From a virus: a DNA stretch of 23,080 nt. Positions within the stretch are counted from its first letter, which is position 1. Each line of letters opens with the position of its first letter. The stretch lies in the IMG/VR virus record IMGVR_UViG_3300019730_000011, positions 1 through 23,080 of that record; one strand, 5' to 3'. The position numbers and the translations under genes are program-made. Below the pieces are notes generated by a model. It had not been told where the DNA came from. It saw only the letters and a program-made list of their open reading frames with translations, and made no database searches. Shown piece after piece: positions 4,466 to 22,419 of this stretch.

Positions 4466-5707
4466 ATGGCTAATGATTTTAAGAATACCAGTCTGGTTGT
4501 TAAGTGGGCTGTTAAAGCCTTCTTAAACAGCCTACAGCTCGGCGCGAAGGTTGACCGCCAGCTTGACGAGAAGAATATTTTTTCCGGTAAAATTGGCGCC
4601 ACGGCTAAGGTCAGACGGGCGGTTTATTTTGCTGCGACAGACGGCGAGGTTATTGGGTCCGGCGAGACTTCCGACATCGAGGAAGGGACGGTTGACGTCA
4701 CTCTGGCTTTTAGGAAAAAGGTTGTGTTTTCCATTACCAGCCAGGATCAGACGTTGAAGATCGAGGACGCATATGAGCGGTATATTATGCCCGCCATGCA
4801 GGAACTTGCACAAAAAGTTGAGTCTGAAATCGCCGCGGTTTATAAGTATATCTACAATTTTGTAGGTACACCTGGAACTTCCCCCGGTACATTTTTGGCA
4901 GTTGCTCAGGCAAAGGCTAAACTTGATAACCTGGGTGTCCCAATGGATCAAAAGCGCTGCGCTTTTTATGATCCTGATTCAAGTATCACACTGGCGGACG
5001 GCCTTAAGGCTGTATTCCCTCAAAAGATCGCGACTAAGGCGATTGAAGAGGCCGCAATCGGTCGATACAGTGGGTTCGAGATTTACACGAATCAATCTCT
5101 TAAGATCCATACTGTCGGAGTTGCTACTGGAACACCTCTTGTGAACGGGGCGTCTCAGAATACAACCTACCTGTTGAGTAAAGATACTTGGACCCAATCC
5201 CTTGTGACTGACGGTTGGACAAACAGCCAGACGGGTATTTTGAAAGCTGGGGATGTATTCACAATTGCGGGCGTTAACTCTGTCAACAGACGGACCCGAG
5301 AGGACACCGGGTCCCTCGCTCAGTTTGTGGTTACTGCGGACGCAGACAGCGGCGCGAGTACTGGACCTGCAACTCTTACAATTTCACCCCCAATTATCAC
5401 AAGCGGACCTTACAAGACAGTTACAGCCGCACCGGCGGACAACGCGGCCATTACTGTTAAGACGGGTACAGGCGGGACATCGTACCGTCAGAATCTAGCG
5501 TTTCATAAGAACGCTATTACCCTGGCGGTCGCCCAGTTGGACCTCCCACAGGACGGCGCGACAGCTTCCAGGGAGAATTACAAGGGTGTTTCCATTCGGT
5601 TGGTGAGACAGTACAACGTCACAACTGATAAAACGGTTATGAGATTTGACATTTTGTTTGGTGTTAAAGCTCAGAATCCGGGCTTTGCGGTCAGAACTAC
5701 CAGTTAA
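4466..5707 (+). CDS. Major capsid (coat) protein, P22 gp5 type
   Basis: Forms the icosahedral shell. The 413 residues compare with 430 in P22 gp5, and the position after scaffold agrees. The N-terminal arm and long helix region (1-200) contain GSGETSDIEEGTVDVTL and the YERYIMPAMQELAQKVESEI helix, as expected for an HK97-type fold. Residues about 215-335 form a beta-rich block with LKAGDVFTIAGV, matching in place and style the extra I-domain of P22-like coats. The C-terminus returns to the core with RQYNVTTDKTVMRFDILFGV. The Shine-Dalgarno (GAGGAGGGGG) is among the strongest in the window, as expected for the most abundant protein. A terminator-like hairpin follows the stop. Confidence 0.93.
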   Translation: MANDFKNTSLVVKWAVKAFLNSLQLGAKVDRQLDEKNIFSGKIGATAKVRRAVYFAATDGEVIGSGETSDIEEGTVDVTLAFRKKVVFSITSQDQTLKIEDAYERYIMPAMQELAQKVESEIAAVYKYIYNFVGTPGTSPGTFLAVAQAKAKLDNLGVPMDQKRCAFYDPDSSITLADGLKAVFPQKIATKAIEEAAIGRYSGFEIYTNQSLKIHTVGVATGTPLVNGASQNTTYLLSKDTWTQSLVTDGWTNSQTGILKAGDVFTIAGVNSVNRRTREDTGSLAQFVVTADADSGASTGPATLTISPPIITSGPYKTVTAAPADNAAITVKTGTGGTSYRQNLAFHKNAITLAVAQLDLPQDGATASRENYKGVSIRLVRQYNVTTDKTVMRFDILFGVKAQNPGFAVRTTS

Positions 5708-5721
5708 CCGCATAATTTGAC

Positions 5722-5743
5722 GGGCGGACTTTTTCCGCCCTTT
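5722..5743 (+). terminator. Terminator-like hairpin after coat
   Basis: GGGCGGA and TCCGCCC form a perfect seven-base stem with loop CTTTT, followed by TTT and then AAA. The stem is GC-rich but the U-run is short, so partial termination or an mRNA 3'-end stabiliser is more likely than a full stop. It starts 14 bases after the coat stop codon. Confidence 0.7.
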
Positions 5744-5766
5744 AAACCTTCATTTTATGAGGTTAT

Positions 5767-5982
5767 ATGAGTGTTAATAATGAATTCGAACTCGTGGCCG
5801 ACGTAAGCGGGCCCTTGGTTATTACTTGGACGTCTAACGAGCCCACAGCGGCGCTGACTCAAACAATCGCTAATGGAACAATTCCGACGGTTGCCGAATT
5901 GGGTCAGGCGGTTAAAAATCTGAATACGATTGTAACTGCTCTCGTTGCAGCTCAACAGAGTGGCGACATCTCCACAACATAG
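5767..5982 (+). CDS. Small structural-type protein, paralogue A (head fibre or decoration candidate)
   Basis: A 71-residue protein. Its core (about 18-46, with TWTSNEPTA, QTIANGT and PTVAELGQ) is shared with the products at 5991-6257 and 10246-10533. After the core comes a short, probably helical C-terminal part (VKNLNTIVTALVAAQ). The layout, a small beta-type core followed by a helix, recalls small trimeric head-fibre or decoration proteins such as those grouped as phage head fibre proteins, but I cannot confirm membership. It follows coat and a hairpin; GAGG lies five bases before the ATG. It has no cysteine, signal peptide or membrane segment. The DNA shares 30 identical bases with paralogue B, pointing to a recent duplication or gene conversion. 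Function is inferred from position only. Confidence 0.72.
   Translation: MSVNNEFELVADVSGPLVITWTSNEPTAALTQTIANGTIPTVAELGQAVKNLNTIVTALVAAQQSGDISTT
5824..5853 (+). repeat. 30-base direct repeat, copy 1 (paralogue A)
   Basis: Identical over 30 bases to 6063-6092. It encodes TWTSNEPTAA. Beyond it the two genes still align in protein but differ at most third codon positions, so the perfect block suggests recent gene conversion or strong local constraint. Confidence 0.9.
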
Positions 5983-5990
5983 GGGGCTTT

Positions 5991-6257
5991 ATGGGAGTAG
6001 GTACACGTTTTGAAAAAATGGAGAGCAAAACCGCCAGTGCTACGGCGACAGGCGTAACAATAACTTGGACGTCTAACGAGCCCACAGCGGCGACAACCCA
6101 GACTATAGCCAACGGAACAATCCCGACGGTTGCGGAGTTGGGGCAATATGTCGCTAACAATGAGGCTCAAATTGCCTTAATTGTGGCGGACATTGCGAAA
6201 CTTATCGCCGATATGGAGACCGTTAGATCTAAGATCAACGCGGGCGAAGGCGGTTAA
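5991..6257 (+). CDS. Small structural-type protein, paralogue B (head fibre or decoration candidate)
   Basis: An 88-residue neighbour and paralogue of the preceding gene. The core at about 23-51 (ITWTSNEPTA, QTIANGTIPTVAELGQ) is nearly identical in protein sequence. The N-terminus differs (MGVGTRFEKMESKTASATAT), and the C-terminal helix is longer, with hydrophobic residues at heptad-like spacing (IALIVADIAKLIADMETV), suggesting a short coiled coil and perhaps trimers. AGGGGG precedes the ATG. A strong intrinsic terminator follows the stop, so coat, A and B could form one abundant transcript. A shared core with different ends would suit two related fibres or one mixed oligomer; neither can be chosen from sequence. 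Confidence 0.72.
   Translation: MGVGTRFEKMESKTASATATGVTITWTSNEPTAATTQTIANGTIPTVAELGQYVANNEAQIALIVADIAKLIADMETVRSKINAGEGG
6063..6092 (+). repeat. 30-base direct repeat, copy 2 (paralogue B)
   Basis: Second copy of the block at 5824-5853, with a 239-base offset. The third family member encodes the same motif at about 10378-10407 but with diverged DNA. Confidence 0.9.
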
Positions 6258-6262
6258 TTTAT

Positions 6263-6286
6263 AAGGGGCTTTAGGGCCCCTTTTTT
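6263..6286 (+). terminator. Rho-independent terminator after paralogue B
   Basis: AAGGGGC and GCCCCTT form a perfect seven-base stem around TTTAGG; with the stem's final TT the run is six Ts. This is the clearest intrinsic terminator in the window. It separates coat and the two small genes from the downstream tail genes, which must depend on read-through, antitermination or another promoter. Confidence 0.85.
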
Positions 6287-6297
6287 CGGAGATAAAA

Positions 6298-6681
6298 ATG
6301 GATATGGAAAGAGAGCGCTGTTACGTCTATAAAAAAGGCGAGGAGCCTCGCATGGTTTACGTGGAACAGGCGGCGGATTTTTATAACGAAGGTTGGGCGG
6401 ATAGCCCGGCGAAGTTTTTCGACATGAAAGAACACGGTATGGACCCAGAAAACGAGATCGAAGTCCAGACGGTTGGCGAAGCATTGGAAGGCGTTAAGGA
6501 AATGGCTAACGGGGCGCTTAATTTAAAGCGTATGACAAAAATTGAGCTTCAGGAATACGCCGAGAAACATTTTGACATGAACCTTGACGACGGTATGTTA
6601 AAAGCTGAAATGATCACAGTTATCGAGGACATGATTGAACCTAAAGAGGACGACGTAATCAAAAAGCTAAACGAGGGCTAA
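6298..6681 (+). CDS. Hypothetical phage protein with C-terminal HeH/LEM-like domain
   Basis: A 127-residue acidic protein. The N-terminal third has a pattern common in small phage proteins beside head genes: an MVYVEQAADFYNEGW stretch followed by DSPAKF at about 35-40. Residues about 78-113 (MTKIELQEYAEKHFDMNLDD then LKAEMITVIEDMI) form two helices joined by an extended turn, the HeH/LEM-like fold often found near phage head-completion genes and sometimes linked to DNA binding. It starts 12 bases after the terminator with CGGAG as RBS and ends three bases before the gp4-like gene. Its role is unknown; a minor head or DNA-contact protein is possible. No cognate P22 protein comes to mind. Confidence 0.7.
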   Translation: MDMERERCYVYKKGEEPRMVYVEQAADFYNEGWADSPAKFFDMKEHGMDPENEIEVQTVGEALEGVKEMANGALNLKRMTKIELQEYAEKHFDMNLDDGMLKAEMITVIEDMIEPKEDDVIKKLNEG

Positions 6682-6684
6682 CTA

Positions 6685-7125
6685 ATGGCTACAGCGCGGA
6701 AAATACTTGAACGGTCTTTTTCTATGGCTGGGATTAGGGCGGCGGAAACCCCTTTGACGGCCGCGGAGATTGCGGACGGTCTCGATTTAATGAATGATCT
6801 GTTAAGTCTTTGGGATGCTACCGGGACCTTGAAAGGGGTCGCGCCGGTAATGGGCGCAGATGATGAGGTTAACGCGGACCGACATGAATTGTACGCGATT
6901 AAGTCTAATGTGGCTATAGGGTTAGCAGGGGAATATGGTATCCCGGTTAATCAAAGTTTAGCGCACAACGCTAATACAGCGCTGTCTGGTCTTGTTTCCG
7001 CTAATATTAATTTACGGGACATAAAATACCCTTCTACCCTTCCCGTCGGCTCTGGGAACCGAGACGAATTCGGAACGGGCTATGATAGGGATTTTTTCCC
7101 GGAAAATGAAAAGGAGAATTTTTGA
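6685..7125 (+). CDS. Head completion / tail accessory factor, P22 gp4 type
   Basis: Closes the portal after packaging and provides the platform for the gp10-like hub. The 146 residues compare with 166 in P22 gp4. The N-terminal helix opens with ARKILERSFSMAGI and continues into LTAAEIADGLDLMNDLLSLW, the hallmark of this family, and the segment YPSTLPVGSGNRDEF near 115-127 matches the conserved LPxGSGN region. The order portal, scaffold, coat, this gene, gp10-like is that of P22. P22 gp4 also has peptidoglycan-hydrolase activity; no such catalytic motif can be identified with confidence here. The stop overlaps the next ATG as TGATG. Confidence 0.88.
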   Translation: MATARKILERSFSMAGIRAAETPLTAAEIADGLDLMNDLLSLWDATGTLKGVAPVMGADDEVNADRHELYAIKSNVAIGLAGEYGIPVNQSLAHNANTALSGLVSANINLRDIKYPSTLPVGSGNRDEFGTGYDRDFFPENEKENF

Positions 7126-7430
7126 TGACACAGCCTAGCAATAGACGTTTACAGCTACTTGAAAATGCTACCGCTAACGTAACGGGCGAGTGGTTCGAGT
7201 GGGACGGTGTGGGATCAGGGACCCAAGCGGCCTATGGTACGTTTGACACCTGCTCTATTCAGATTCAGATCAGTACTGACGGGGGCGTCACGGCTGTTAA
7301 TTTAGGTTCCGCTATAACCGCCGCAGCGGTCGCCGCTTTTTTACAAGGCAACATCCTTGTAAGGGCGGTATTATCGAGCGTCGGGGCTAGCACTTCTGTA
7401 TCTGTTGATATCGTAGGGCCCGAACGATGA
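7125..7430 (+). CDS. Small beta-rich virion-associated protein, unknown role
   Basis: 101 residues from the ATG at 7125, which overlaps the previous stop and has AAGGAG nine bases upstream; a TTG three bases earlier is a less likely start. The sequence suggests a single beta-sandwich: an opening ENATANVTGEWFEWDGVGSG, a QIQISTDGGVTAVNLG strand pair, and a closing ILVRAVLSSVGASTSVSVDI. Similar small proteins lie between gp4- and gp10-type genes in other podoviruses in my recollection, but I have no function to give. P22 has nothing at this position. The stop overlaps the next start as ATGA, so the two may be translated together. Confidence 0.72.
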   Translation: MTQPSNRRLQLLENATANVTGEWFEWDGVGSGTQAAYGTFDTCSIQIQISTDGGVTAVNLGSAITAAAVAAFLQGNILVRAVLSSVGASTSVSVDIVGPER

Positions 7431-8797
7431 AATGGAGCCCAACCATTGGACCGGATTTATATATCTGGGTCGGCGTATCGACTGCAACGAAACCAACAGC
7501 GGGCATACTTGCGGGGCAACGGGCGTTTGAAACAGACACCCAAGATGAATATAAGTGGTGGGGTAATGCCTGGGTTAAAGTGTCCTCTAAAGGGGCGTCG
7601 AATGTGGTAATACAAGACCCCACTACCGGGGACGTTGCCCGTGTTAAAGAAAACGCCAACACTAACAGCAATGAACTATTAGTAAATCTTGAAGGCCACG
7701 AATGTCCTGAGAATTCAACTACTGCTCAACTTGGCGCAGATGCGGTATTCACTGGTAGCGGGTGGCAAGATACGCTTGATTATGGAGTTCTTAGTGTCAA
7801 TATAACGACAGACCAAAACAGCGCAACAGATGGACTTGAGATTCAATGGAGTGATGACGGGATTTCCGTAAACGACTATGATTATTTTACAATCCTTGCT
7901 AACCAATCAAAAACTTTCACTTTCGGACCAGCGAATAGATACTACAGAATAAAATATACAAACGGGTCAGGCGGTACTACTACAACTTTAAGCATTACGT
8001 CATTGGTGCGGCGAGTATACGTTAAGCCTAGTTCACACAGAATTAATGATTCTATCGTTGGTGAAGATGATGCCGAACTTGTAAAGTCAGTATTAACAGG
8101 TCTTGCACCTGACGGGGCTTTTAAAAATGTACAAGTAACTAATGCGGGTAATCAAAAGATATCTATTGAAGAATTTGATGGGGCTGTATCTTCAACTATG
8201 GATTCATTTTCTGATAACATTGACGGGGAAACAGGCTTACTTGTTGCAGCTGGCATATATGGCAGGGTTAGCGATACGATATTAGCGCCGATAAGCATTG
8301 ACAGTTCAACGCACGCAATAAACGCAATAACTTATGAACATCATGAAATACATGGAGGTTCACACTATAATTATTGTGACTATCTTGCTGCTACTGGTTC
8401 AGGGACTGTGATAGAGTTTATCTTTACGACTCCAAACACAACTAAATGGGTACATCTAACTTTCGATGTCTTTTCCGCCACAGGGGCAACAATTCAGCTG
8501 TATGAGGGTACAAGTGGAATTACAGGCGGAACACCAATAACGCCAAGGAACAACAACAGAAATTCATCCAATACTTCAGATGTCACATTGTTAAAAGATC
8601 CGTCAGCCATTACGTCAGACGGGGCAAGAGCGGCCGGATTTTTGGCGGGGGCTGGGAGGAACTCAGGCTTTGTGGCAAGAGACAAGGAATACATACTTGC
8701 ACAAAATCAGACATATATGGTAAGGATAACTTCCACAGCTGCATCTAATGCTATTTCATGGTGCGCTGAGTGGTATGAACATACAGACAAAAATTAA
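7427..8797 (+). CDS. Modular virion structural protein, likely tail or capsid surface
   Basis: 456 residues in separate modules. Residues 1-55 hold a short motif common at phage structural N-termini (AGQRAFETDTQDEYKWWGNA). Residues about 90-195 resemble a beta-sandwich repeated in many baseplate and tail proteins (ENSTTAQLGADAVFTGSGW, then IQWSDDG and ANRYYRIKYTNGSG). Residues about 200-250 are a linker (PSSHRINDSIVGEDDAELVK). Residues about 303-456 form a C-terminal domain with HHEIHGGSHY, FTTPNTTKWVHLTFDV, TPRNNNRNSSN and a closing WCAEWYEHT, seen in other phage virion proteins. No enzyme motif is evident. From about 7670 the DNA looks more AT-rich than neighbouring genes, as often in swapped surface modules. 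It lies between gp4- and gp10-like genes, a place empty in P22. Confidence 0.78.
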   Translation: MKWSPTIGPDLYIWVGVSTATKPTAGILAGQRAFETDTQDEYKWWGNAWVKVSSKGASNVVIQDPTTGDVARVKENANTNSNELLVNLEGHECPENSTTAQLGADAVFTGSGWQDTLDYGVLSVNITTDQNSATDGLEIQWSDDGISVNDYDYFTILANQSKTFTFGPANRYYRIKYTNGSGGTTTTLSITSLVRRVYVKPSSHRINDSIVGEDDAELVKSVLTGLAPDGAFKNVQVTNAGNQKISIEEFDGAVSSTMDSFSDNIDGETGLLVAAGIYGRVSDTILAPISIDSSTHAINAITYEHHEIHGGSHYNYCDYLAATGSGTVIEFIFTTPNTTKWVHLTFDVFSATGATIQLYEGTSGITGGTPITPRNNNRNSSNTSDVTLLKDPSAITSDGARAAGFLAGAGRNSGFVARDKEYILAQNQTYMVRITSTAASNAISWCAEWYEHTDKN

Positions 8798-8798
8798 T

Positions 8799-10256
8799 AT
8801 GGCTAGAATGCCGATACCTCTCGGGGTAGGATCTTACGAATCAGTGTCAAGGCCGTTCAGTGTTCAGCGCTGTGTCAATATGTACGCGGACGCCGCCCAG
8901 GCGGAAGCCTTGAATGATTTTATGTTATATGGTACGCCCGGAATAGTCAGTTTTAGCACTGTTGGGGCTAGCGCTAGCCGAGGCGCTCATGTAATGAACG
9001 GGGTTTATTATGTTGTCTCTGGGACGTCCCTATACTCCATAGATAGCTTGGGTGTGGTCTCGTCGTCACTCGGAACGGTGGCCGGGACGGCGCGGGTTAA
9101 ATTTGCGGACAACGGGGATAAACTTGTAATTCTAGTACCGGGCGGGAACGCCTATGTCTATATAGCCTCGGCGCCTTCATTCGCTCAGATAACGAGCGTT
9201 AATTTTAGGACCTCGGATAGTGTATGTTTTAAAGATGGGTACTACATTTTTACGGAAACAGGAACGAATGTATTTTTTAATTCCGCACTTAATGACCCGT
9301 TGACTTTTGGCGCTTTGGATTTTGGGACCGCCGAATTAGCCCCCGGCCCCATAATAAGCTGTCATGTTAATTTTGATGAGCTATTCATTATTAAATCTGA
9401 TATGCTGGAAATTTTCCAAAATGTCGGCGGCTCCGGGTTTCCATTCCAGAGGGTCCAGGGTGCGAGCATGGAAAAAGGGACCCATTCGAAATATAGCCCG
9501 GTGGAATGGGAAGACGATTTCTATTTCTTGGGCGGTGGCAGGAACGAGAAAACGGCGGTTTTTAGGACGGGGACAACGACGACCCCGGAAAAAATAAGCA
9601 CAGACGCCATAGACAACGAGATTCAGAAATTTACACAGGCCGAGGTCGCTCAGAGTTTCAGTTTTACTTATGCTATTGGGGGCTTTAGTTTCGTGGGGTT
9701 CACGATCCGTTCGGTAAATATTAATTCCCGGACGTTTGTTTTTAACGTAACTGCTAGCCGGTTAATGCAAAGGCCGATATGGTTCGAGCAACAGACAGGG
9801 ATCACCGAAAATGCCTGGAGACCGCAGTCTGTAACTCTTGTGTATGATAAATTGCTCGTTTCGGACGTCACGGACGGCCGTATCGGCTATTTGGATGAGG
9901 GGACGTACACGGACTACAGCGCGGTGATAAGTAGGGAAAAAACCCTACCCCCACTATCAGCGGGCGGGGTAGCTACCTATCTACACGCGCTAGAGCTAAC
10001 AGTTGACGCGGGTCAGGGGCTAATCTCCGGCCAAGGCTCGGACCCTGTTATAATGTTGGATTATTCCGACGACGGGGGCCGAACTTGGTCAAGCGAGTTA
10101 AAACGCCCACTTGGAGACATCGGGGAGTATTTCAGGCGGGTAGAATGGCGGCGCCTCGGACGGATACCATCACATAGGGTTTTCCGGTTCCGACAGACGG
10201 ACCCTATTAAAACAGCATGGATTAAATTAGAGGGAGATTTAACAGGTGGCCGATAA
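8799..10256 (+). CDS. Tail hub / packaged DNA stabilisation protein, P22 gp10 type
   Basis: Attaches below the gp4-type protein and helps hold packaged DNA in the head. About 485 residues, against 472 in P22 gp10. Features include the RPFSVQRCVNMYADAAQAEA opening followed by YGTPGIVSF, a series of short beta repeats through the middle consistent with the gp10 propeller, and an ending (GDIGEYFRRVEWRRLGRIPS and a final RFRQTDPIKTAWIKLEG) characteristic of the family. The ATG at 8799, one base after the previous stop, gives MARMPIPLG; the ATG at 8808 would give MPIPLG, closer to the MPI start of P22. An upstream ATG at 8748 would overlap the previous gene by 50 bases and add residues without family resemblance. 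No strong Shine-Dalgarno is seen, so coupling is likely. Confidence 0.88.
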   Translation: MARMPIPLGVGSYESVSRPFSVQRCVNMYADAAQAEALNDFMLYGTPGIVSFSTVGASASRGAHVMNGVYYVVSGTSLYSIDSLGVVSSSLGTVAGTARVKFADNGDKLVILVPGGNAYVYIASAPSFAQITSVNFRTSDSVCFKDGYYIFTETGTNVFFNSALNDPLTFGALDFGTAELAPGPIISCHVNFDELFIIKSDMLEIFQNVGGSGFPFQRVQGASMEKGTHSKYSPVEWEDDFYFLGGGRNEKTAVFRTGTTTTPEKISTDAIDNEIQKFTQAEVAQSFSFTYAIGGFSFVGFTIRSVNINSRTFVFNVTASRLMQRPIWFEQQTGITENAWRPQSVTLVYDKLLVSDVTDGRIGYLDEGTYTDYSAVISREKTLPPLSAGGVATYLHALELTVDAGQGLISGQGSDPVIMLDYSDDGGRTWSSELKRPLGDIGEYFRRVEWRRLGRIPSHRVFRFRQTDPIKTAWIKLEGDLTGGR

Positions 10257-10533
10257 AATTTTTGCACCAAAAAGGAACCAGCCCCTTGTGCACGTGGGCG
10301 GGAAACCGACGCTTAGGACGTCGGAGTTTTTGGAAGCGCTGGCGAAACAGGCCGACAACGTGCCGGATTTAACTATCACTTGGACTACAAACGAACCGAC
10401 GGCCGGGAGTATCCAAACAATAGCCGACGGGACGGCGCCGACAGCGGCCGAGCTGGGTCAAGCTGTAGCAAATTTAACAGCTAAAGTCAACGCAATTTTT
10501 AACGCTTTGGACGAAGCGGGGGTAATGCTATGA
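10246..10533 (+). CDS. Small fibre-type protein, paralogue C, in the tail-needle slot
   Basis: A 95-residue protein starting at GTG (10246), with GGGAG upstream, and overlapping the gp10-like stop. Residues 1-40 are unique (MADKIFAPKRNQPLVHVGGK, then FLEALAKQ), a pattern like the N-termini of small tail-associated proteins. Residues about 42-72 are the shared core (ITWTTNEPTA, QTIADGT, PTAAELGQ) of paralogues A and B, and the last 20 residues are probably a helix with hydrophobic repeats (VANLTAKVNAIFNALDEAGV). In P22 this position, directly after gp10, holds gp26, the trimeric tail needle that plugs the hub. This protein is much shorter than gp26 (233 residues), but position and a possible coiled-coil C-terminus make a short plug or fibre an attractive reading. 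That is inference. Confidence 0.75.
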   Translation: MADKIFAPKRNQPLVHVGGKPTLRTSEFLEALAKQADNVPDLTITWTTNEPTAGSIQTIADGTAPTAAELGQAVANLTAKVNAIFNALDEAGVML

Positions 10534-11081
10534 CAGACGCGGTACAATTAGCGGGCGCGGGCTCAGACGTAGCTTTAAAAGCTGAATTTTTAGCAGCGTA
10601 CCAAAAGGCCCTATATGAGATACAAGAGGGATGTAAAGAACAGGAACAAGTTGAACTACCTCTCTTACATGATTTTACACCGGGGCTTTATTTAAGAAGA
10701 ATATTTATGCCTTCGGGTACGTTCGTTATAGGTAAAACTCACAAAACGGAACATTTTAATATGATATTGGCCGGGTCGGCTAATGTAATGATAGACGGCG
10801 AAATAAGACTTATTAAAGCGGGGGACGTGTTTATTAGTAAAGCCGGGACTAAAAAAGTTTTACATATTATCGAAGATATGATATGGGCGACGACTCACGC
10901 CACGGAAGAGACGGACCCGGAAAAACTCGAATCTTTGTGTATTTACACGGACGAGGAAGAAAAACAATTAATGTTAGGGGGTAGTTATGACCTGGGGAGC
11001 GGTAGCGATAGCGGGGGCAACCCTGATCGGTTCTTACATGAGCCAGCAACAACAAGCGGAAGCGCAGAGGGCGGCAAATAA
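10530..11081 (+). CDS. Cupin-fold protein, virion or assembly role unknown
   Basis: 183 residues. Residues about 40-135 look like one cupin barrel: LYLRRIFMPSGTFVIGKTHK leads to a His-rich motif (H71, H75), the FNMILAGSANVMIDGE strand pair and AGDVFISKAGTKKVLHIIED follow, and WATTHATEE supplies H123. H71, H75 and H123 are the likely metal ligands, though the motif is not the exact classical one. Cupins of this type occur in tail-gene regions of other phages; a substrate cannot be named. It starts as ATGA on the stop of paralogue C. The last 31 residues (from about 153, rich in Gly, Ser and Asp) lie in the overlap with the next gene and do not look like part of the fold. In P22 the equivalent place between gp26 and gp7 holds gp14. 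Confidence 0.78.
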   Translation: MTDAVQLAGAGSDVALKAEFLAAYQKALYEIQEGCKEQEQVELPLLHDFTPGLYLRRIFMPSGTFVIGKTHKTEHFNMILAGSANVMIDGEIRLIKAGDVFISKAGTKKVLHIIEDMIWATTHATEETDPEKLESLCIYTDEEEKQLMLGGSYDLGSGSDSGGNPDRFLHEPATTSGSAEGGK

Positions 11082-21654: not shown

Positions 21655-22419
21655 TCATTGTCCAGGCGCCACTGTTGGCGTGCCCGGAGGGTATAAAAAA
21701 GATTGGTCCGGCTGTACGGGGGCACTGGGGGCCACAGGGGGCGCCTGGGGTACAGGAGCCACAGGGGGGGCCTGTGGTACAGGGACCGCTGGGGGCGCTT
21801 GGTATCCAGGGACCGCTGGGGGCGCCTGAGGCGCCGGTACTCCCGGGACCGAAGGTATTGCCCCCGGTTGCATTGGGAGGGGGGCCGCTGGGGCTGCGAA
21901 TACTTCCGAGGCCGCCGGTCCGGTCTGGATCTCTTTATCCACAGAAACAAGCTGTACCATATTAAAATTCAAATACACCCCCGGTTTTTGTGCGTTTCCG
22001 TTCGCTTTGCAGCTATAAGCTACACGGACCTGATACCCCGGTTTTATGGCGTGGGGGTCGATAATTTGTTGACTGTTAATGTCAACGATTGCGTTTGGTG
22101 CGAAAGTCGTCCTGAAGGTAAACACAAAACAACCGGCCCAGCCTTCTTTCTGTGAATTCTCGGGGAGATCCCCGTCCTTAAATTTCCAAGCGAAGTCTTG
22201 ACGCTGGTTTTCCCCGGCAAAGAAACCGGCCGCCGCCGCTCCTTGGATATTCCCAAAAAGAGCGGGGAGTCCGGGGTCGGTTTTTGGGATCGCTATCTGT
22301 ATGTAATAAACAGGTGTTTCAAGCTGTTTGCCTTGGTATCCCTTGCTTGAGGGTTGAAATATCGCGCCGGAAATCATCCGGCCTGTAGGCGTCACGCCCA
22401 TAAATTGTTGATCTGTCAT
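21655..22419 (-). CDS. DUF2815-type ssDNA-binding-like protein with proline-rich tail
   Basis: Probably coats single-stranded DNA during replication. 254 residues. The core (about 10-160) follows the DUF2815 pattern: QIAIPKTDPG, FKDGDLPENS, FVFTFRTTFAPNAIVDIN, GYQVRVAYSC and GVYLNFNMVQLV. From about 165 the protein becomes a Pro/Ala/Val/Gln-rich tail built on nine-residue units such as VPQAPPVAP, coded by 27-base tandem repeats, and ending GTPTVAPGQ. Bacterial and several phage SSBs end in a short acidic tip; none is present. The ATG has GGAGG eight bases upstream and overlaps the DUF2800 stop as ATGA, fitting co-expression with the nuclease and polymerase. DUF2815 members are generally placed beside DUF2800 and polymerase A in phages, which supports the call. 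Confidence 0.82.
   Translation of the reverse strand: MTDQQFMGVTPTGRMISGAIFQPSSKGYQGKQLETPVYYIQIAIPKTDPGLPALFGNIQGAAAAGFFAGENQRQDFAWKFKDGDLPENSQKEGWAGCFVFTFRTTFAPNAIVDINSQQIIDPHAIKPGYQVRVAYSCKANGNAQKPGVYLNFNMVQLVSVDKEIQTGPAASEVFAAPAAPLPMQPGAIPSVPGVPAPQAPPAVPGYQAPPAVPVPQAPPVAPVPQAPPVAPSAPVQPDQSFLYPPGTPTVAPGQ
21738..21818 (-). repeat. 27-base tandem repeats in the DUF2815 tail
   Basis: Three clear 27-base units (21738-21764, 21765-21791, 21792-21818) with partial copies on each side, differing at several bases. Each encodes nine residues of the PQAPP type. On the other strand they give a misleading collagen-like reading frame, rejected elsewhere. Confidence 0.85.

Follow-up and report, generated by a model that had tools for sequence, protein, structure and literature searches.

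The stretch analyzed here, hereafter the window, is an IMG/VR record of 23,080 bp that represents a fragment of an uncultured, short-tailed P22-like phage. Its genes run in the order terminase, portal, scaffold, coat, SF1, SF2, a 127-aa gene, gp4-like, two more genes, gp10-like, SF3, cupin-like, and genes of ejection type, in agreement with the annotated P22 order 5-orf69-4-10-26. The coat gene (4466–5707, plus strand) and the gene for a gp10-like tail/head-closure protein (8799–10256, plus strand), both named as such in a first-pass annotation made from the sequence alone, were confirmed by matches to the Pfam P22 coat family (PF11651, 7e-56; phrog_283, 2e-83) and to phrog_578 (7e-100), respectively. 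The gp10-like product is the presumed partner of a tail needle. Its gene probably starts at 8799 (ATG GCT AGA), after a preceding gene that ends at 8797, and not at the first ATG at 8748: in the ORF that opens there, phrog_578 is matched from residue 18 onward. Between SF2 and the gp4-like gene, the 127-aa gene (6298–6681) has relatives after the coat gene in many P22-like contigs, many of them with the N-terminus W(I/V)YHxxxxPKIIN.

Three small genes on the plus strand encode a common core: SF1 (5767–5982, 71 aa, core 5821–5907), SF2 (5991–6257, 88 aa, core 6060–6146), and SF3 (10246–10533, 95 aa, core 10375–10461). All three lie exactly where the first-pass annotation had placed them, and its claim of a shared core holds, with Smith-Waterman z scores of 22 for SF1/SF2, 21 for SF1/SF3, and 19 for SF2/SF3 against a background of 2000 shuffles. 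The start codon of SF3 is GTG, and the first 11 nt of this gene lie within the 3' end of gp10. The homologous core spans 29 residues, ITWT[S/T]NEPTA...QTIA[N/D]GT.PT.AELGQ; SF1 and SF2 agree at 28/29 of these, and SF3 agrees with either at 22/29. No further copy of the core occurs elsewhere in the 23,080-bp record.

The family has no Pfam name, none of the three proteins reaching the threshold of any Pfam family, and its PHROG match is partial. That match, to phrog_31660 (Synechococcus phage S-CBS1 gp20, annotated ‘tail fiber protein’), was obtained with 20/29 family members at E<=0.01 (best E 4e-9). The two share a C-terminal module, TIADxTTPTVAEL...LRTVGVIA; S-CBS1 gp20 differs in its longer N-terminal fiber domain and in its location in a siphovirus tail gene cluster. 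The window proteins match from about position 117–123 of 182, and no full-length match that includes the N-terminal fiber domain was found. A scan of genome contigs returned no relative. Among the phage isolates searched the matches were weak, with S-CBS1 the best, and matches to mycobacteriophage tape-measure proteins (E ~0.3) were taken as chance.

In all three proteins the core runs into a helix. AlphaFold monomers, built from 23–29 sequences and of moderate confidence (pLDDT 74–80), show the core as extended but without strands, followed by a single long helix at residues 47–85 in SF2 (6129–6245) and 67–91 in SF3. Across 29 sequences, large hydrophobic residues occupy two heptad phases of the helix at frequencies of 0.75 and 0.84, compared with <=0.31 at the other phases. 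Relative to aligned members, the SF2 helix contains one extra heptad (IADMETV, 7 residues, 6204–6224, plus strand). In a related contig (L025) the core occurs three times at a spacing of exactly 30 aa, and behind these cores come three helix repeats whose spacing is exactly 28 aa, or four heptads. Length changes by whole heptads are what a coiled coil allows. The heptads, the 7-residue insertion, and the 28-residue repeats thus support, at the level of sequence, an architecture in which an extended or beta base would be followed by a coiled coil. The first-pass annotation had described differing C-termini and a changeable C-terminal helix. A coiled-coil heptad helix does adjoin the core, but the helices are related to one another, and core and helix travel together.

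We scanned viral contigs with the family alignment and obtained 33 loci, all of which contain ORFs with the core by iterated HMM. In about 21 distinct P22-like contigs, the family gene lies directly after the coat gene, with gaps of 8–83 nt. With gp10 used as bait, 80 contigs were collected, and the coat gene is visible in 55; the family follows it immediately in 12 of these 55, or in 10 by a mechanical ORF criterion, which misses two contigs (L071 and L074) whose first start codon falls inside the coat gene. Unrelated major capsid genes are also followed directly by the family (phrog_371 in L026, L032, and L034; phrog_3437 in L029). In L035–L038 the neighbor is a weak major capsid match (phrog_1328), in L031 the family gene sits between portal and scaffold, and in L018 and L027 the core is present with no capsid gene recognized beside it. 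A scan with the class-B modules, those found next to the capsid genes of non-P22 phages, added no new kind of gene context. The post-coat slot is optional, and in other P22-like contigs it holds different small proteins. Two such occupants, a 178-aa protein (MAFDSTGLKAMGGKGKAF..., L083 4839–5375) and a 104-aa protein (MFNNDRDGDAGGV..., L075 2289–2603), are probably alternative decoration proteins.

A GC-rich hairpin, GGGCGGA-CUUUU-UCCGCCC, occupies 5722–5740 on the plus strand between coat and SF1 (folding z=-5.0 for 5705–5762). Eight of the nine relatives that were folded have GC-rich stems of differing sequence in the same gap, and P22 has an annotated stem-loop at this place after its coat gene. 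These hairpins suggest that the accessory genes may be read at a lower level than the coat gene. After SF2, a terminator-like hairpin with a T run (AAGGGGC-loop-GCCCCTTTTTT, 6263–6282, plus strand) is weak by energy (z=-0.9).

The reading of SF1 and SF2 that fits best is as minimal head fibers or decoration proteins, proposed by analogy to be trimeric. The head fiber of phage Andhra consists of a 44-aa beta-prism and a 30-aa coiled coil and is trimeric on the capsid (PMC9710869). SF1 and SF2 resemble Andhra gp13 and P68 gp14 in arrangement, with a coiled coil behind a short beta base at the N-terminus; those proteins differ in being 285–481 aa long, in having a C-terminal receptor-binding domain and a gene that is not beside coat, and in lacking a sequence match. 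Phage L Dec and phi29 gp8.5 are likewise small, trimeric capsid accessories, and phi29 gp8.5 has a beta base and a helical coiled spike (PMC7602432), but the bases of these proteins are an OB-fold or a beta-tulip and a PDB search gave no sequence match to them. Given the likeness to the Andhra head fiber, and since proteins of this sort are usually trimers (PMC7602432), we infer that SF1 and SF2 are trimers as well, in which the core would form the inter-chain beta base. The first-pass annotation had pointed to a resemblance to phage head-fiber proteins. This survives as a likeness of arrangement; homology to known head-fiber families was not found by sequence, and a profile search of the PDB with the core, of the kind suggested together with that resemblance, gave no match. 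PDB profile searches with the set of genes that follow gp10 (see below) also returned nothing, nor did a Foldseek search of the PDB with the SF2 model; a core this short and extended is difficult to match.

It is unlikely that SF1 and SF2 are instead assembly chaperones or scaffolding accessories made beside the coat protein and absent from the finished virion. Adjacency to coat is by itself no proof of virion location, and proteins this short could act transiently. However, the module is fused to the fiber protein of S-CBS1 and, at the capsid slot of L029, to a different N-domain (phrog_18004; z 9.6), one of those that small proteins in this slot have in other P22-like contigs, a graft comparable to that of SF3. 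In addition, the slot is optional and filled by different small proteins in relatives, as decoration slots are, and the anatomy fits an extended base with a coiled coil. We consider it quite unlikely that the core, instead of serving as a trimer base, binds receptors or glycans at fiber tips and owes its spread to selection for adhesion. Head fibers and the tips of needles do often point toward the host, and S-CBS1 gp20 carries a tail-fiber annotation, but the core is N-terminal, on the base side, in SF1 and SF2 and lies between anchor and helix in SF3, so that the end of the helix, and not the core, would be distal. The core is also the most conserved part of these proteins, unlike typical adhesin tips.

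SF1 and SF2 contain an identical 30-base tract (SF1 5824–5853 and SF2 6063–6092, both plus strand), which the first-pass annotation had attributed to recent conversion or duplication. The block is real, and the cores are nearly identical though the remainder of the two genes differs. It consists of ten successive codons that are identical in the two genes and is followed by six successive synonymous mismatches. The probability of such a block by chance is ~2e-4 given the rate of codon identity outside it, and 0.0075 by permutation of all codons. A conserved DNA or RNA element was ruled out because relatives use other codons there, and the codon string of the block is used by no relative. A related contig (L030) repeats the pattern, its two cores being near-identical (28/29) and the remainder divergent. 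The N-termini of SF1 and SF2 belong to two lines, M..N..E..DD and MG.NTRF, both of which recur in other contigs. The 30-base tract fits local and recent gene conversion between SF1 and SF2, as read from the sequences of these genes.

SF3 is built differently. Its core (ITWTTNEPTAGSIQTIADGTAPTAAELGQ, predicted extended) matches those of SF1 and SF2 with z of 15–17, while the N-termini have no match to theirs, bearing out the earlier idea of a mobile core with interchangeable N-termini, of which the L029 graft is a second case. Residues 1–38 (10246–10359, plus strand; predicted helix at residues 23–36) form an N-terminal anchor common to genes in the position directly after gp10. They match the N-termini of the post-gp10 genes in 8 of 13 relatives with z of 7–13, and the most distant relatives show a weak match or none; against the core, those genes score z<1.6. 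An HMM built from 73 other post-gp10 N-termini, with the window excluded, matches SF3 residues 1–43 at E=9e-13, and all of its strong matches across the 14 sources searched are genes directly after gp10. None of about 75 other post-gp10 genes contains the core, and the whole records of 15 relatives hold no core copy beyond the slots described above. The idea of a divergent core in the post-gp10 genes of L108, L117, and L135 (end VAELADIVxTLIxDLxAAGVI) was rejected, the helix end alone being alike and the family HMM giving no match. Judged from its sequence, SF3 is a mosaic of a tail-needle anchor and a head-fiber-type module, because its N-terminus is of the post-gp10 type and its core and helix are of the capsid-adjacent kind.

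Structure comparison points the same way. In a Foldseek search of 350,542 PDB chains, the top match to the SF3 model was 9vyg_S (prob 0.89, E 1.2, rmsd 1.3 over 34 columns), the needle of cyanopodophage Pan3 (Pan3_08; also 9vzi_B), which is present as three chains in its PDB entries and whose gene directly follows a gp10-like gene. Aligned by VIA, the N-terminal ~45 residues superpose in register with a modest score (Z 4.5 over 43 residues, rmsd 2.0). The needle is also the best match in Pan3 to the post-gp10 HMM, in the same register (E=0.13), although the direct sequence match to SF3 is weak (BLASTP E 0.13; hhalign P 0.004). Unlike SF3, the Pan3 needle is 197 aa long, with a long Ala-rich stretch and a C-terminal domain of its own, and lacks the WTxNEPTA core. 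Matches of SF3 in BFVD were unnamed or unspecific, with none besides. SF3 lies directly downstream of gp10, the order of P22 10-26 and of Pan3_07-08, and hence in the gene slot of P22 gp26 and the Sf6 and HS1 needles. P22 gp26 ends in LRAHGL, which resembles the LRxxG(L/I/V) ends of the SF family, but at 233 aa it is much longer than SF3 (95 aa), and no sequence homology between the two was detectable, the post-gp10 HMM included; the Pan3 needle, too, is difficult to find by sequence. P22-like needles share a virion-binding N-terminus that plugs the channel, carry swapped C-terminal tips, and form a trimeric coiled coil (PMC3741392). Ends of the R(A/I)HGLI type occur in the long needle-slot proteins of L104 (7464–8165) and L121 (2766–3935) as well as in P22 gp26 (L043 8210–8911), and the class-B ends at head slots are similar.

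SF3 is thus most likely a tail needle: it has the position and the anchor that define one, and a plug function is predicted by analogy. The first-pass annotation had listed it as a third virion protein after a gp10-like gene, but by its N-terminus it is more than that, a tail-needle homolog. We think it distinctly unlikely that SF3 is another head-fiber or decoration protein that merely follows gp10, with a generic phage motif at its N-terminus and the needle missing or encoded elsewhere. Such a reading would draw on the otherwise capsid-adjacent location of the core and on the weak sequence match to Pan3, but it has to contend with the highly significant match of residues 1–43 to N-termini found directly after gp10, with the Pan3 needle as first structural match, and with the P22 gene order.

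The core and helix of SF3 appear to have a separate history. In a tree of both parts, which comprises 60 columns and has few resolved forks, SF3 groups with class-B modules (support 94/89) and away from SF1 and SF2. SF3 and class B have in common an AxxLTAK(V/L)N helix and an LxxxG end; the SF3 heptad helix (10444–10518, plus strand) ends in LxxLxxxG(V/I/L) and scores 43–57 against class B, compared with 19–25 against SF1 and SF2. We therefore regard the SF3 module as probably acquired from outside, not copied from SF1 or SF2, on the strength of these sequence affinities. That its core is a recent duplication within this genome, as the presence of three related cores in one genome might suggest, is very unlikely in view of the class-B grouping, the helix scores, and a longest identical DNA run to SF1 or SF2 of 8.

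We consider it likely that a single module explains all three proteins, with SF1 and SF2 as head fibers or decoration proteins and SF3 as a short tail needle. The oligomerization or fiber module would comprise a base of ~29 residues (WTxNEPTA...QTIADGTxPTxAELGQ), extended and probably inter-chain beta, that runs into the heptad-repeat helix. SF1 and SF2, each a short N-terminus, the module, and a coiled coil, would be expressed as a gene pair behind the hairpin just after coat and would sit on the capsid. At the tail tip, the first ~40 residues of SF3 would be inserted in the gp10 ring, like those of the Pan3 needle, and would close the DNA exit channel, the fiber module serving as shaft and tip of the needle. 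All three proteins would form trimers on a beta base of three strands. Historically, the needle slot would have taken up a module of the type encoded beside capsid genes in non-P22 phages, and local conversion between SF1 and SF2 would have kept their cores alike.

The earlier proposal of one core at several virion sites is upheld by gene position, with the capsid slot in about 21 distinct P22-like contigs and the tail-needle slot in the window, and its formula of one core with a changeable anchor was mostly correct; what is new is that SF3 is probably a needle, and of foreign origin. The module occurs at two stations with different anchors, at the head slot and in a probable needle, and a single building block thus seems to have passed between separate parts of one virus. 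We put at about even the odds that a single fiber module moves among phages and between two functionally different sites of the virion, the capsid surface and the tail needle that plugs the DNA, and that this phage carries it at both. If so, the two-station module would be direct sequence evidence for a suspected common origin of some head fibers and tail needles; on grounds of shape, a relationship between the phi29 head fibers and the P22 needle has been suggested (PMC7602432). In the present case one module can be traced through its sequence from head slots in several capsid lineages to a needle slot, where the anchor was left in place. Moreover, the N-terminal signature obtained for the gene after gp10 allows candidate tail needles to be recognized in many uncultured phages with short tails.

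Two other genes of the window deserve mention. Directly 3' of the needle gene, 10530–11081 encodes a cupin-like protein (phrog_12032, ‘short tail fiber’, 6e-34; weak Cupin_2), and a cupin-like gene also follows the needle gene in many relatives (L014, L019, L023, L024, L025, L030, and L042), at about the place of P22 gene 14. Farther downstream, on the minus strand, 21655–22419 encodes a protein with a C-terminal proline/alanine/glutamine-rich repeat of PQAPPVAP units.
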